This document shows, piece after piece, positions 32 through 8,246 of a stretch of 64,000 nucleotides of DNA. A model generated the notes under the pieces. It saw only the letters and a list, made by a program, of their open reading frames with translations, ran no database searches and was not told the origin of the DNA. The stretch lies in contig FTLJ01000545.1 of the NCBI GenBank assembly GCA_900155495.1, forward strand, positions 21,528-85,527, given 5' to 3'. This DNA is from Porogramme epimiltina. Taxonomy: Eukaryota; Basidiomycota; Agaricomycetes; Polyporales; Polyporaceae. The translations under genes and the position numbers were made by a program. The number at the start of each line of letters is the position of its first letter. The first letter of the stretch is position 1.

Positions 32-3000
32 AGACGACACTCGGACATATGCTCGGCGACATCCTGTCAATTGCTACATCGCCCGACCTTCCATGCTTCG
101 ACGGACATAAGGTTATCGAACTGGCTAGATGGACGCTGACCACGGTCGAGCTTTCACCTACGGTTTTGTTCACAAAGCGGGTTCAGATCGTTGGGTTGAT
201 ACTCGACCTGGTAGAATCGGTGTCCGCTCAATCCGGCGGCTGTAAGGTATGCAATATTTTTGGCATTCATACGACAACTCTGATGTGTCCTTTAGATTGT
301 GCACCATCTACTGAGCATATACCCTTCCCTATTCCTAACGGACTCCCTGCCTGTGCTTCCTACTGTGCTCGAACGTCTCGTCGGTTTTGATGAAGCAACC
401 CGTGCAGATGCCGCCGTAGTTCTAGGAGGATATGCACTGGGTCTTCCCAGCACAGACGCCTCGGCTGGAAGCACTTCCCGTGAGGCGGTACTGCAATTCA
501 TCCTCAAGTATCTCCCCACATCTAGCCACTCCAAACGCGACGCAAATTGCCGGTTCAAGCAGCTTATAGAACGCGCCATGGCCGGACCCGAGGAAGGATC
601 CAGCAGAACAGGACCTCGCTGGGCCATTTTTGTGATTTGTAGCCTGATACTCCTCTCTGGCGCAGACGTATTTCTCAAGGGCAGACGTTTCTGCAAGTTG
701 ATCCTCGACACATCAGAGTCGCTCTCTCGTCCCAAGGCCAGGCTTCACCATGACCTGAAGGCGTGCTTGTGGCGATGCCTTCTTTGGGCATATGCACAGA
801 TGCCACCCCACGACTACTCGCAAGGACCCGCTAATCCTAGTGTTACTACAAGGGAAGCTGTACTCAAAACTGTTAGGCAAGAGCTCAATCACGGCGTTGG
901 CGCAAGATTGGTCGGCATTCTCCTATATGCGCCACCGGGTCCTCACCCGTCGTCTAGTTCGGAATCGGTGAAGAAAGACATAACCTCGGCTGTTTCAGTG
1001 CTCAAGGACATGGCCGAAAGTCAGAACGAAGATGTGCACGCTGATAGCGTCTCAATCCTCTCGCGGATGGTCAACGTCGTTGAGAATGCCGCCGATACTA
1101 TCTCCCCGTCATGGAACCCCAGCGAAATCCCTGTCAAGCATTTCCTTAGGCCCGACACGTTCACGCTGGACTCCGCCAAGTTATCCACTACCTTGCGTCA
1201 GGCCAATCGTTTCAGTCCTTCTATGATTCGGCCCCTCCTAGAGGAAGACATCCAACAACAATGGGCTGCACTCCTTGACGTATGGCGACTGTGTGTGATC
1301 AGGGTGTTAGGGAAGCCGAAATATGTCTGCCTCCCGGTACGCCGTGTAGCTTTACGTCTTCGGTCTTCGTTTCTGACGTGTTATTTTAGGATGCTCTGGT
1401 ACAAGTATGGCAGTCGCTACTTCTTTCCCAGACACATCTTACCCAAGAGCATCGGCACTTAACGACAACGTCGCATTTCACCGAGACGATTGTGTCAGTC
1501 CTGGCCTCGTTTCTCGGTTGTGCGCCACCATCGACAACCAATCCCACCACCCCGGCTACCGGTGTTCAAGCTCGCACCCTTTCCCTAGCCTCCCAGCTCT
1601 GGCGTGTCATTCAGCACGTATTCTGTGAGGCATGGTTATCTTCTGCAGCCGACTCGCTCCTCGTGCAGATACAACGTTACACGGTCGACTCGTCGAATCA
1701 AGCTGTCAATATCGTATGGGGCGAGTTTTGTGCTCTCTTGATCACCGACAGTGGACCTTCATTCTTGGAATATCCGGCCGCCGACGGCGAAGTGAAAGAC
1801 AACAATGAAGTGAGACGGATGCTGTGGTTCCTGAAAGCGCAGACGTGGGATATACAGTACTCCTGGATGGAATGTGTGGCGTTTCTCAGTGTGCCTATCA
1901 GGTAGGAGATTTATAACGCCGGCATTTACGTATCTAACGAAATAATCTAGCAAGCGTTGGTCGCTGAACATTGAAGAGACAGAGGCCTGGGATGCTGTCC
2001 TCGAATGTGCTCTCTCCAAAGCCGCCTCTACCTCCGTGCCTTCCCTATCTGTGTTCGACGCTATCGTGGAGCGCGGCTGCGGAGATATAGGAACCGTTAG
2101 GTGGGTACTTCGTCTCGTTCAGAGAGGCCTTATCTAACATGCCCCGTTCACACAGGGCTTTCGGGGGCAGTACCACACTTCGCCTCGTATCCCGAGCGGT
2201 CTTAGAAGGAGTGCTGGACGGGCAATCGCGACTCCTAGAGGCCGTCGCAATCGCAATCCGTGAACTCTACTCCGGCCTCCGAGAAAATGTCGCCGCCGTG
2301 CCTCCTCTGATAAAGGAGGTCGGACGCCTCATCGAACATTCAAGTCCGGCTGCTGTTGAAGGCATTCTCACATCCCTCGCTGAAGGTCTGTCAAAGTGGA
2401 TCGGCGACGAGGATGAGTTGCTCCCAGTTGATGAGTATAACGATATCGTGCGTGTGTTAGCGCTCTCGTCCCTCTGGTGAATACTGATTATGTGTTCAGA
2501 TTATTCCACTATATATTGCCACCCTCGAGGCACTAGAGAAGATACCTATCACTACCAACGTTCTTCATACCCTAGGATCCTTACTCTATGCCGCCTTTAT
2601 CCGCATGCCTGAACCCTGTCATGGACCAGACGCGTTCTACAAGTTCTGGGCTCGTAACCAATCCGCCCTCTCTCACCTCAACGGACCAATCCCAGACAAC
2701 CTCAAAGCTGCCCTCAGCGTGTGTCCCGAAAGCTATGGCATCACCCTTCCTTCGGACATCACCGCTTCCACGGAGTCCCAAACCGCATCCCAAGCACACG
2801 CACGCCATGCACAGGTAACTACCCAAGCCTCTGCATACATCCACCGCACGGGCACTGACCCTCCCACCACAAGCAGGCATCCCCCGGTATCTCCGCGCCT
2901 CTCACGAAAGCGTCCGCGACGGCGACCCCGCGCAAACACCCCCACGCTCGCCCCCGCGCGCCCCCGTCGTCCCCCGGGCCTCTGCTGCTTTCCTCTCCCT

Positions 3001-4256
3001 CTCCCGCGACCCCTCCCACCGCCACGCCCAACTCTAAACGCCGCGCCTCACACGATACCGGGAGCAGCTCGCCAGCACCGCACACTGCCGCCGCCCTCGC
3101 CGCGGCCGCGGCCGCGGACTCGTCCGACTTTGCGCCGAGCTCGCCCACGGACGCGGTGCTGCGCGCGCGGCAGCGGTTCGCGCCCGCGCCCGCGCGCACG
3201 GGGCCCGCGAGCCGCGTCGCCCACGAGCGCCCCGCGACGACGCCGGACCGCCCGCTGAAGCGCAGCAGGCTGCTCGCGTCCCCGGTCACCGGGGGCGCGA
3301 GCGGTGGGAGGGACAAAAGGAAGAGAAGCACGGACGCGGACTCGAACACAAACCTGGGAGCGAGAGCCGGGACGAGCGAGGACGGCGCGCGCCGCGGCAC
3401 TCGCGCGTCCTCTTCGCGCTCGACGGGCGGGCAGAGTGGACGGTGGCTCTTGGACTGCGTGGAGATTCCTGTGCGACGAGGAGCGTCGTCGGCCTCGAGG
3501 TCTACGCGGCCGTCGACGTCCAGCCGGCGCGAGAGCGCGAGTGGCAGGAAGGATAAGTCGTTGCCTAGCCCGGAGGTGTCCTTCCCCTCGGGCACGGCCC
3601 CGGGGCACGCTGCCGAGCCCGACTCGGAGGACTACGACGCGTGGGAGGTGCCCATGTACGTCGAGGAAGATGAAGCTGAAGAAGATGAAGATGAAGATGA
3701 AGACGAAGACGAGGACGAAAACACGGGCGACGACGAGGTGGACTACGTTCCGGACAGCCAGCCAGACCTCCCATCGCACCGCGACGGCGGGGACGAAAAC
3801 GAGCTGAATGTGGTGCCAGACAGCCAGCCCGGCGAGCACAGCGCACATTGCCCTGCCTCCCACGACGAGGAAGAGGACGACCCGCTCGTCCCGAGCTTCA
3901 TGAAAGAACCCACAGCGCGCCGCACGTCCCCGCCGCACGAGCCCGCCCCGCCGCACGTCCCGCGCCGCATGCACACCGCGCCCACTGAGGCACACGTCCC
4001 GCACAGGAGCCCGAGCCCGAGAGCAGGGCCGAGCACAGCGCCCCCCGCGCACACACACGCGCGCGCGCGCACGGCGTCCGCGCGGCTCGAGGAGCACCTG
4101 CACGGCGCGTGCGCGGCGTTCGACGCGGACGTGTCGCAGCTCGGGCCCGCGGCCATCGCGACGCTCGAGGAGCAGGCCGCGCGGCTGCACGCGAAGCTGC
4201 GGGCGCGCCGGCGCGAGGTCATGGGGCCGGATGGGCCTGGTGAGGGTGGTGCGTGA
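32..4256 (+). CDS. Rif1-like HEAT-repeat protein, 5' end missing
   Basis: Seven exons are visible: 32-246, 296-1336, 1390-1901, 1951-2100, 2156-2447, 2500-2814 and 2877-4256. They give about 1300 residues in one open frame. The window opens inside an intron (branch CTGAC at 16-20, acceptor TAG at 29-31), so the start lies upstream. The first ~800 residues are helical and leucine-rich with HEAT-like character, resembling the N-terminal domain of fungal Rif1. Rif1 binds telomeric and late-replicating chromatin and recruits protein phosphatase 1. The last exon codes for a disordered, GC-rich tail with an Ala run, a Glu/Asp run (about 3660-3730), two copies of VPDSQP and a short C-terminal helix (about 4080-4220). 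I saw no convincing RVxF or SILK phosphatase-docking motif. The Rif1 name rests on pattern resemblance; another HEAT/ARM scaffold is possible. The gene converges on the methyltransferase gene, 202 bp away. Confidence 0.6.
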
Positions 4257-4458: not shown

Positions 4459-6864
4459 CTACTCGAACACCTGGCACCCGTACTCGACGTTCCCCTCCCG
4501 TGTGAACGCGATGATATGGTCTGGAGAATCGCAGCAAATGTCAGCTCAGGGCGCGCGGTGAGACAGAAGCTGATGATGATCGCTCACCTCCCAGTCGTCG
4601 TGTCGTGAACCCAATCTCGCAGTAACAGCTGGAAATAGACAACACGTTAGCCGAGGCGCACGACAGACCGTAGTCGCGCTCTCGACGCACTAGTAGTATA
4701 TCCACTTGCGGCGGAATACCTCGATCTCCGCCTGCGCAGTCGCGTCGTCGGTGCCCATCACGCCCGGGTACTCCGCCTTGAGCGCTGTCAAACGCGCGAA
4801 AGCGTGGACAAGGCACCAACCAGTCAGCACTGCGGCATAGAACAGCAGAACGCGTGAGGTGAGAGGCGGGCGCACCTGGGACGACGACCTCGTCGAAACG
4901 CGCCTCGAACCGCCTGCGCCACTCGCGGAGCGTGCGCGCGTAGTGCGGGCCGATGTTCGACACCGAGTCGACGACGAGCCGGCCCCCAGAGCCCTTGTTG
5001 AGGGTCTCGACGAGGAAGGTGAGCGTCGGGAGGAATCCGCCCGGGAAGACTGCAGAGCGGTACGGGGGCGGGCGTCAGCGTGAGATGCGGCGGAACGGAG
5101 CGCAGGAGAAACGTACTCTGTTTCCATGTTCGACATTGATGGGGTAGAATAGACCGGATGCGGAGTGATCAGTGGGGTAAGTCGCGGGAAGCTCTTAATG
5201 GGCGGCAACGCACCCATTTCCTTATGAAGTCGAGATCACGCATGTATTTCTCGAATCCTGGATTGGCGCGGGTCGGTCAGGGTTGCGCACATTGCAATAA
5301 CGGCACGCGGAATATGACGTACTGGCTTCGGGGATAGTGATGCCCTGGATAACACCGACTCCGGTCTCCTTGTTCAGTGCCCAGTCGATTTTTGACCAAT
5401 ACGCCTGTAGGATTCCGCGGCAATTTAGCCTCTAGTGTCACACGCGGTTGGTTGCGGGCACACACCTCCATGTACTCCTGCCCAACTGCCTCCACCATCT
5501 CGACACTGACGAGGCGGTCGAACGCGCCTTCCCATTCGGGTGGCATATTCCTGTAGTCCATCAGGTGTACGCGGATACGGTCTGACAGGCCTGCCGCTGC
5601 TGCACGTTTGCGCGCGAGTTCCGCTTGCTGCGTCGAGAGCGTGAGCGTGTCTACAGTCGTGCCTGGAATTGTGGACGTGATGAGGAGAGACATGGAACCC
5701 CAACCGGAGCCGATTTCGAGGACCTGAAGAAGGGGAGGAATGATAGGACGCGTTAAATTGGGTTCCCACACAAAAGTTGTATGCGTACCTTGTGCCCTGG
5801 ACGGATATCCGCCTTGCGAATTATGTGCCTTAGCTTGCGCATCTGAGAGTCCTCTAGCTGGTCCTCCCCTTCTACCGGACACAAGTGGTGGTGGTGACCT
5901 TCGTGTGAGAATAGACCAAGTATGTTCTGTTGGATTCCCTTCAGCGCGTCGCCCAATTCAGACGCTGCGAGTGTCGAAGGAGTGGAAGCGCCGTTGGGGG
6001 ACGAAACTTGACTTCTCCGTGGGGAGCCAGAAGACGACGCGGAACCTGAGGATATCTGATGAAGGTCGCCATCCAGTTCGGGGAAGATTCCGCAGGAGTA
6101 TGTCATGTCCTTGGAGAGGAAGCCTGTAAGTTGGGGAATGTATCAGTAGGGTGTAACGCTCGCGCTCGCGCGCCGCGCACACAGCGATAGCCCGGCCGGT
6201 GCGGCGTGCTTCGGAGCCCCTGAAACAGCGCGAAGAACTGACCCATGAACATAGCGTTGCTGATGTCATAGTGCGCGCTGATGTTCTTGCGCGCGTTCGT
6301 GACCGTGTTGACTATATGCGCGGTGAGACCGAGTTGGGGCATGTAGCCCCCTATGCGCGTGAGGAGGGAATTCTCGATCGCGGAGAGCTGGGATTGGTTG
6401 GCCAGAAAGACCTGGGCGGCGTCGGCATGAGAACCATGGTGGCGGGAATTGAAGAGCGAGGGTAAGGCAACTAGGTGCTCACCATGAAGACCGTCACCAA
6501 GTCGTCGACGTCGACCTCTCCATACATGTACGCCTCCGAGAAACCGAGGTCGCCCATGGCGCACAGGCGCAGCCAGAAGTTGGGGTTGCGGACATGAAGC
6601 TCTGCGACTGGCGTGTGCAGGCTCCTCGAAGGCTCGCGTTGGGGGTCTTGCTGTTCGCCGAAGCGGTAGGTGTGCTCGGGCGTGTGGATGATGAGCGTGC
6701 CGTTCGAAATCCTTTGGAGGAGGCTGGAGAGTCGCGTGAGCTCGCGAAAACACGGTAGGGGGACGGGTCGCGCACGTGGTGGCGGCCTTTTCGGCGAGAG
6801 AGCAGAGCGGGTGCTTGACGAAGGCGGCCGAGGAGGAGAGGGCGGAGCCGACGAGGGATGCCAT
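4459..6864 (-). CDS. Cyclopropane-fatty-acyl-phospholipid synthase family methyltransferase
   Basis: Twelve exons (minus strand): 6864-6776, 6723-6483, 6411-6243, 6123-5789, 5723-5466, 5404-5323, 5257-5214, 5117 (1 nt), 5049-4876, 4784-4691, 4628-4588 and 4520-4459. They total 1590 nt, or 529 aa, with no frame break. The family moves a methyl group from S-adenosylmethionine to the double bond of phospholipid acyl chains. Landmarks are ARKNISAHYDISN (about 150-162), DMTYSCGIF (about 172-180), the SAM-binding VLEIGSGWG (279-287), VEMVEAVG, a conserved FPGGFLP and the C-terminal WIYYCYCEIGF. The start has a strong context (CCACCATGG). The first intron (6724-6775, 52 nt) restores a frame that otherwise looks shifted. 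The 1-nt exon is required to read RKW-I-FPGG; see findings. Related fungal enzymes include sphingolipid C9-methyltransferases, but those usually carry two N-terminal membrane spans, which I do not see here. Confidence 0.93.
5117..5117 (-). other. Predicted 1-nt micro-exon of the methyltransferase gene
   Basis: A single A lies between two standard-looking introns. The upstream intron is 5213-5118 (96 nt, donor GTGCGT, acceptor AACAG). The downstream intron is 5116-5050 (67 nt, donor GTACGT, branch CGCTGACG, acceptor CTCTGCAG). The codon W406 ends at 5214; A plus TC from 5049 makes Ile407, followed by FPGG. Without the A the frame is lost downstream. Confidence 0.6.
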
Positions 6865-8246
6865 GGTGGGCGAGTGCGGGGGAGGGAGGGTTCGGCTACC
6901 TCGGGGAGGTGGAGAGGCCGATTAAGTACGAGTGGGGGAGAGCCGAGCTGGTGCGGCGACGTGCTCGGCCAGATTGGACGGGCGCGATGATCAGCTTTCC
7001 AACGCCTTCCACGACGACGGCCTTGACGTCAACGACGGACGCGATCGTCCCCGGCGTCTCCTACTCCGGCCCCATCGCGCTCTCCACAACGTTTGTGGCG
7101 TGCTCGCCGACCGCCGCGCACAGGAGGAGTAAACACGCGACCGCCGCGCGCCTCGACGTCGTCGCTGGTGCCTGCTGCAGAACCCAAGGGGTTGTGAGAA
7201 AGGGCGGCCGAAGACTGGGGAAGCCGCCGTTGCCATCGAGCGGATTGATGCCCGACGGTGCATACTCGCCCGACAAGCCCTTTCCACTTCCAAGGGCTCG
7301 GTTCGAGCACCCCATCTACCAATCAGGGCCGTCGAGAGGAACGTCGTGTGCACCCTGCCAGTGCCACAACGCCAACGGTCTATTATACAAGCGCCGGCAT
7401 CGTTAGCATCGCTCGAGATCTTTCGTAAGACCGTACTGCATCCATGACACTCACACGCGCAGAATGTCCCTGGCGAGTGCCCTGCCTTCAAATTCCGACC
7501 CTGCCCAAACCTGTGCATGGTCCGCGAATAGAGTCCGAGAGTAAAAGCACGCTCATGGTGGCTGACACGAAGGCCAGATGAATGTGGAACCGTGGACAAG
7601 CCGTGCCAGACGCTCGGCGGTGGCGTCGGGGCGTTGTTCGGGAGTCCGGAGCTTTCTTTTCAGGGACGTCATCCGGTCCGCGAAGGCCCGATTCCTTCAT
7701 ACGGTCACGTGCCACCACACCGATAAAATTCCTCTAGCTCGCTCGCTCTTCTTCTTCACCCCGACAGCACCAAAGCCGCGAGGCTCACGCCGCACAGGAT
7801 GCCTGCTGCCCCCTCGGCAGGCATCCACACTCGTGAGCGGGCTAAGGTCTGAGCATTCCAATCCCCCTCGATCGACTCTAGCCGGGTCCGGTCTGAACAG
7901 ACCGCGCGCCGCACCAGAAATCCAGTCCCGCCCCCCACTACTGCCCGGAGACACGCCTCGGCGTCGAGGGCGGGGGGCGTTGGACTTTGGGATACGGCGC
8001 GGGGATCGGGCGCGCGCGCAATTGTTTTGTGCTGCCCCCGCCCGCCTGCGGCTCGCCTGCAGGCGCGGTGGGGAGCGGCGCCGCCGCGTCCTTTAGTGCA
8101 CTTCGCGGCTCGCGTATGTGGGGCCTCGCGCCCCCAGCGAAACTCGATTCAGACTACTCTGGTGCTGTCGGGCACTTTGCTCTTGCAATTTTTTCCTCTA
8201 CTCAGCTCTTCGTGAGCTATCGATCTCGTTGACATCGATCTACGAC
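6865..8246. other. Intergenic region upstream of the methyltransferase gene
   Basis: No convincing gene. The proximal part should hold the promoter of the minus-strand methyltransferase. On the minus strand, 7315-7061 is an 84-codon ORF ending in TAG, and the same frame continues open for about 54 more codons towards 6900. This may be a broken reading frame. The segment 7760-8100 is GC-rich and featureless; 8180-8246 is pyrimidine-rich and could be a 5' leader for the ORF at 8247. Confidence 0.4.

Follow-up and report, generated by a model that had tools for sequence, protein, structure and literature searches.

Exons of a single nucleotide have been reported only rarely, as an earlier note on the DNA analyzed here had claimed and as the literature bears out. 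In plants, such an exon was described in Arabidopsis APC11 (PMC4674806), and those of plant APC11 and VPS55 were found to be conserved (PMC8831610); another is present in a placozoan mitochondrial cox1 gene (PMC5436844). In Fusarium, a one-nucleotide exon was described in the P450 gene CYP621A (PMC12940212, February 2026), in a study that presents it as the first in a fungal gene, names APC11 alone as precedent in its introduction and relies on 18 SRA reads together with aligned genomic DNA of many Fusarium species. We found no report of a one-nucleotide exon in Basidiomycota in the open-licence PMC literature, judged mostly by listing entries.

Here we analyze a CFS1-like gene located in a 64,000-nucleotide stretch of the Porogramme epimiltina genome (hereafter, the window), in which one exon is predicted to consist of a single A. 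Like the CYP621A exon, it lies in a nuclear fungal gene as an AG-base-GT arrangement inside a conserved motif, the base is needed for the reading frame, an intronless homolog (here, the bacterial locus L009) serves as a length marker and automatic annotation misses the base (PMC12940212). The phylum and the gene are different, as is the base (G in Fusarium, A in the window), and whereas the Fusarium case is documented by reads, ours is known from sequence, with an inferred spread over a class. APC11 also has a single A between introns, wrongly represented in the reference annotation, and this exon is old and widely conserved (PMC4674806, PMC8831610), as the window exon probably is. In APC11, a distance of 44 nt separates the exon from a putative branch point on its upstream side (PMC4674806), compared with 51 nt in the window gene. 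In contrast, APC11 is a plant gene with a longer first intron that places the A 333 nt from the upstream exon (PMC4674806), and constructs, RT-PCR and RNA-seq stand behind APC11 and VPS55 (PMC4674806, PMC8831610), while the window exon is a sequence-based prediction.

Two other fungal systems are comparable in part. Ascomycete stwintrons (PMC12403724) likewise involve two adjacent GT-AG introns expected to leave consecutively, but no exon base separates their parts, whereas one remains in the window gene. The P450 genes of Phanerochaete, a wood-decay basidiomycete, combine very small exons with short introns, yet their smallest exon has 6 bp (PMC1184071). As for the gene family, mutation of cfs1 in Coprinopsis stops fruiting at the initials stage (PMC4082614). 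The Coprinopsis cinerea gene (PMC4082614, PMC8805025) shares the family with the window gene by name, many homologs being labelled CFS1-like.

The CFS1-Like Gene of the Window

The 12 joined exons (Table 1) form a 1590-nt CDS that encodes 529 aa plus a stop codon and contains no internal stop. The intron between exons 1 and 2, for which there are five candidates, is the least certain of the gene model. The protein is assigned to the CMAS family by a Pfam CMAS score of 186.3 bits, against a curated cut-off of 27, and matches the CFA synthase structure 6bqc with an E-value of 4.6e-30. It is a predicted CMAS/CFA-synthase-like methyltransferase, for which a cyclopropane or methyl-branched fatty-acid product would be assigned by family only. 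Among the matches listed, the closest proteins, at 75–77% identity, comprise gene models of Ganoderma, Dichomitus, Earliella and Lentinus among others, as would suit a window that probably derives from a relative of these bracket fungi.

Table 1. Coordinates of the CFS1-like gene and of the exon 7–9 junction in the window
Feature	Position	Strand	Basis or remark
CFS1-like (CMAS family) gene, 12 exons	4459–6864	−	joined CDS and Pfam CMAS
Exons 1–6	6864–6776, 6723–6483, 6411–6243, 6123–5789, 5723–5466, 5404–5323	−	
Exons 7–12	5257–5214, 5117, 5049–4876, 4784–4691, 4628–4588, 4520–4459	−	
Exon 7, last codon TGG (W406, 5216–5214)	5214–5257	−	joined CDS
Intron 7, phase 0, 96 nt, GTGCGT..AACAG	5118–5213	−	sequence, splice-site listing
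Predicted one-nucleotide exon 8, an A that opens the Ile407 codon of RKW-I-FPGG	5117–5117	−	
Intron 8, phase 1, 67 nt, GTACGT..CTGCAG	5050–5116	−	sequence, splice-site listing
Exon 9, TC TTC CCG GGC GGA: bases 2–3 of I407, then FPGG	4876–5049	−	joined CDS
Alternative +5 GT donor GTTGCC, C at +5, weak	5208–5209	−	one 160-nt intron to 5050, giving W-V-L-FPGG

In the surroundings of the gene, we identified a full-length match to the nuclear RNase P RNA (RF00009) at window positions 7764–8168 on the plus strand (54.3 bits, gathering score 28). A 465-codon stop-to-stop frame (2859–4256, plus strand), with a Glu/Asp run and two VPDSQP repeats, lies just past the 3′ end of the gene. The genome itself gave 12 CMAS matches, two of which are the window gene; eight loci were examined (L001–L008, the window gene being L002). 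When both strands of the seven other CMAS loci were scanned, the motif in its junction context was not found. At one of these loci (L001, contig C754), which we take to be perhaps a sphingolipid C9-methyltransferase, KYIFPGA lies within one uninterrupted ORF of 365 residues.

The Exon 7–9 Junction

Between exon 7, which ends in RKW, and exon 9, which begins TCTTCCCGGG at 5049 (read as TC-TTC), the frame is short of one base, modulo three. We found a lone base between AG and GT in the intervening DNA, AACAG-A-GTACGT, and the earlier note had placed the A and the ends of both flanking introns correctly. With the A, the CDS of the length given above stays open in one frame, again as claimed; if it is skipped, a frameshift leads to a stop at codon 473. 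The A also restores the conserved protein sequence, W-I-FPGG, which aligns ungapped with L009 and with the structures 6bqc and 5z9o. The spliced junction would then read AAATGG-A-TCTTCCCG.

The listing of possible solutions covered GT-AG introns: any micro-exon lying between an AG and a GT, provided that each of its two introns had 40 nt or more, and any single intron of 40–250 nt giving an open frame with FPGG. Within it, four options keep the frame: the 1-nt A, a 19-nt exon, a donor at 5209 and a donor at 5239. The 1-nt A is the only one of these GT-AG solutions that yields RKW-I-FPGG. The 19-nt exon (GAG acceptor, GTTCCG donor, 47-nt second intron) gives no W-I-FPGG, and the donor at 5239 deletes RDLDFIRKW. 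If intron 7 or both introns were retained, a stop would arise at residue 421; retaining intron 8 alone would lose the frame, though without a stop inside the joined CDS.

The architecture of the site also recalls a [D1,2] stwintron as described for ascomycetes (PMC12403724), with TGG/GTGCGT..CAGAG/TACGT (slashes mark the borders). Its internal intron would span 5213–5116 and its external donor would be made of G5214 and T5115 onward, with no exon base between. We regard this as scarcely credible here, because splicing in this way would leave a product that is out of frame and lacks the normal stop. Any nested reading with the outer borders 5213 and 5050 would similarly join TGG to TC, out of frame.

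Splice Signals and Chance Expectation

Splice sites were judged with the introns of the window gene as the only reference. In the gene model, G occupies +5 in each of the 11 donors and all 11 introns end in CAG, whereas the donor at 5209, GTTGCC, has C at +5. This is the weak alternative that the earlier note had pointed out; it is indeed present in the sequence. The nine other introns measure 52–119 nt, and a single intron at the junction would be 160 or 164 nt long. Intron 8 carries CTGAC 25 nt from its end. In intron 7, the branch-like motifs are CTGAT and CTTAC, 51 and 60 nt from the intron end, with none closer. Among the ten other introns, eight have a CTNAY motif 13–39 nt from the end, and introns 4 and 5 have none. 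The lack of a branch-like motif nearer than 51 nt in intron 7 counts against the one-nucleotide exon, and the description of both introns as having full fungal signals therefore holds for intron 8 and less so for intron 7.

Chance expectation was estimated in two ways, both requiring 45 nt or more to either side of the lone base: from 5000 dinucleotide shuffles of the 164-nt stretch, and from real DNA, using the 817 GTNNG..CAG stretches of 154–174 nt in the window. A bare AG-N-GT sandwich is weak evidence, since it occurred in 10% of shuffles and 18% of the real stretches. CAG-N-GTNNG was found in 0.76% and 2.3%, respectively, and YAG-A-GTRNGT in 0.02% of shuffles and in one of the 817 real stretches, presumably the site at 5117 itself. 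These numbers bear on the possibility that an assembly error or a frameshift mutation removed a base at the exon 7/9 edge, so that one long intron is present and AG-A-GT is coincidental. One base does decide the frame, and AG-N-GT as such is common. Yet, the precise YAG-A-GTRNGT class is rare among shuffles, and independent public models point to the same one-base deficit in many other species (see below); we consider such an error very improbable.

Homologs at the W..FPGG Junction

Three protein searches, taking the best 120 matches of each, gave 167 distinct homologs. Eleven of them are unnamed and tagged lgn (10) or jgi (1) only (P0003, P0034, P0045, P0048, P0056, P0067, P0072, P0105, P0112, P0128, and P0144); the 156 others are published gene models. 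The 11 are uninterrupted ORFs of 488–610 aa on contigs of 1.8–6.1 kb, and the tags probably denote assembled contigs without gene models. Since their ORFs are uninterrupted, while the window member has 11 introns, they were taken as apparently spliced cDNA. Among the 167 homologs listed, all 11 of these read W-I-FPGG and none reads W-V-L-FPGG.

The published models among the matches listed are far more diverse at this position: I in 14, V in 33, a two-residue insert of the form [VA][LIFV] in 57 (VL 25, VI 18, AI 7, VF 5, VV 2) and other states in 52. The latter comprise three with another two-residue insert, 29 with three or more residues and 20 with no W..FPGG pair under the search expression. 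Close relatives differ as well: P0003, which has I, shares 87–89% identity with three Ganoderma models, of which one reads LI, one LNFAV and one lacks the W. P0144 has I as well, and the Heterobasidion model that matches 81% of the P0144 length at 85% identity reads V. In turn, the intronless bacterial homolog L009 (one ORF, 39% identical) aligns its DFIQRHIFPGG to DFIRKWIFPGG with no gap, and the solved structures 6bqc and 5z9o show no gap against the window protein at the junction. The spacing of W-I-FPGG, which the earlier note had matched to the usual YIFPGG of the family, is that of all 11 contig ORFs, of L009 and of both structures.

A length control was made with 13-residue windows on the best 120 homologs of one protein search. 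At the junction, the length of the window gene is kept in 51 of these 120 listed matches; at introns 2, 3, 4, 5, 6, 9, and 11 it is kept in 113, 118, 111, 120, 117, 119, and 117, respectively. Length also varies at intron 1 (kept in 80/120), at intron 10 (92/120) and in a linker around residues 127–131, where the proportion kept falls to 20%, so variation alone is not specific to the junction. At the intron 10 junction (residue 495, window 4690–4629), 21 of the 120 homologs are one residue shorter.

These comparisons also weigh on the 5209 donor, by which one 160-nt intron from 5209 to 5050 would insert a single residue (W-V-L-FPGG) and dispense with a microexon. It preserves the frame, and its product is found in 25 published models among the matches listed, with a comparable two-residue insert in 57. 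However, W-V-L was absent from the 11 unannotated-contig homologs, C takes the place of the +5 G of all used donors, the intron would exceed the other nine in length, and the extra residue would fall in a motif that is ungapped against L009 and the solved structures. We judge this donor improbable. The preference of the earlier note for the one-nucleotide exon over it is supported by the contig ORFs, the ungapped alignments, the +5 G and the pattern in published models described below.

Regular Errors in Published Models

A program that misses the 1-nt exon and uses the +5 GT would add four intron bases, read as GTN and then N plus TC. The translation expected of GTNN + TC starts with V and continues with L, I, F or V; a GC donor would put A in first place. 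Among the published models listed, [VA][LIFV] accounts for 57 of the 60 two-residue inserts, against a class background of 3.7%. Models with W-V-L, W-V-I or W-A-I look like what software regularly produces when it takes the +5 GT as donor. The seven models with W-A-I, from Mycena and Agaricus (P0055, P0102, P0047 and similar), suggest that intron 7 starts with GC there.

For models that read through the acceptor, a codon ending in CA or TA followed by GTC is expected (NYAG/TC). The fitting residue was found in 17 of the 18 V-ending read-throughs (background 47%, p = 3e-5), which suggests that the acceptor immediately precedes TC. The one exception, P0164, passed the filter but is actually a lone-V model. 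Among I-ending read-throughs, Q precedes I in four of ten, as CAG-A would give. Two readings suit these: a false exon that is too long and stops at the A, or a genuine single intron preceding ATC. The two pattern tests were framed after the sequences had been viewed.

Taken together, the two-residue inserts and the read-throughs imply a one-base deficit in other Agaricomycetes. A single phase-0 intron (W/ATC) would not give the two-residue signature, as the four added bases would shift the frame. In Rhizoctonia solani (VI in P0135 and P0152, PV in P0145) and in Agaricus bisporus (VI in P0043, AI in P0047, TV in P0065), different models of the same species between them imply both outer borders. 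According to a taxonomy look-up of one species each, the two-residue signature occurs in Polyporales, Agaricales, Boletales, Hymenochaetales, Russulales, Cantharellales, and Corticiales. A lone V, present in 33 of the 156 published models (e.g., P0005, P0033, P0157), is explained neither by the A nor by the +5 GT and counts against this picture; DNA of the window type offers no canonical route to V at the junction. Our guess is that these models are cDNA-based and that an A for which no place could be found was aligned to a G adjoining TC in the genome, giving GTC (V). Some lineages may have a true V, although none of the 11 contig ORFs does.

We also searched for genomic DNA of relatives. P0003 had no match among the viral contigs, and in the genome contigs it gave eight pattern stretches with no relative among them. 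Alignment A1 gave 81 stretches in the genome contigs, including three relatives, all in bacteria-titled records, and no fungal one. At L010 and L011, no ORF passed the motif filter.

Discussion

We consider it highly likely that the A at 5117 forms an exon by itself, used constitutively and flanked by two ordinary GT-AG introns. Its constitutive use, the order of splicing and the identity of the base in the DNA of relatives are what we infer. Simultaneous assembly of the splicing machinery on the two splice sites of a microexon is not possible (PMC8831610). Since the factors for both sides presumably cannot share one base at once, introns 7 and 8 would be removed in two separate reactions, each recognized by its own ends. 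If intron 7 left first, TGGA/GTACGT would remain with the sites of intron 8 intact; if intron 8 left first, AACAG/ATC would remain with those of intron 7 intact. In either order, the A would supply the first base of the Ile codon in [YW]-I-F-P, a motif conserved among CFA-synthase-like methyltransferases.

This arrangement is likely to be old, as homologs across Agaricomycetes seem to lack the same single base between a donor that follows TGG and an acceptor that precedes TC. We find it reasonably likely that the one-nucleotide exon was present in the common ancestor of the sampled Agaricomycetes, from Cantharellales to Agaricales, and was kept in most mushroom-forming fungi. What is new here is the likely class-wide spread and the seemingly regular errors in public models: 142 of the 156 published models examined lack W-I-FPGG, in a family that includes a fruiting gene of Coprinopsis (PMC4082614).

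The gene belongs to another phylum than the Fusarium case and, if the exon is class-wide, would provide a natural species series for the origin of such exons and for the way in which introns one base apart persist. If the exon is ancestral, no one-nucleotide exon known in fungi would be more widespread, and introns 7 and 8 would form a lasting pair in phases 0 and 1 of one codon, showing the way in which an intron can move by a single base. Since skipping the A frameshifts a gene of a fruiting-linked family, the exon might, if the ancestral reading is true, possibly act as a switch.
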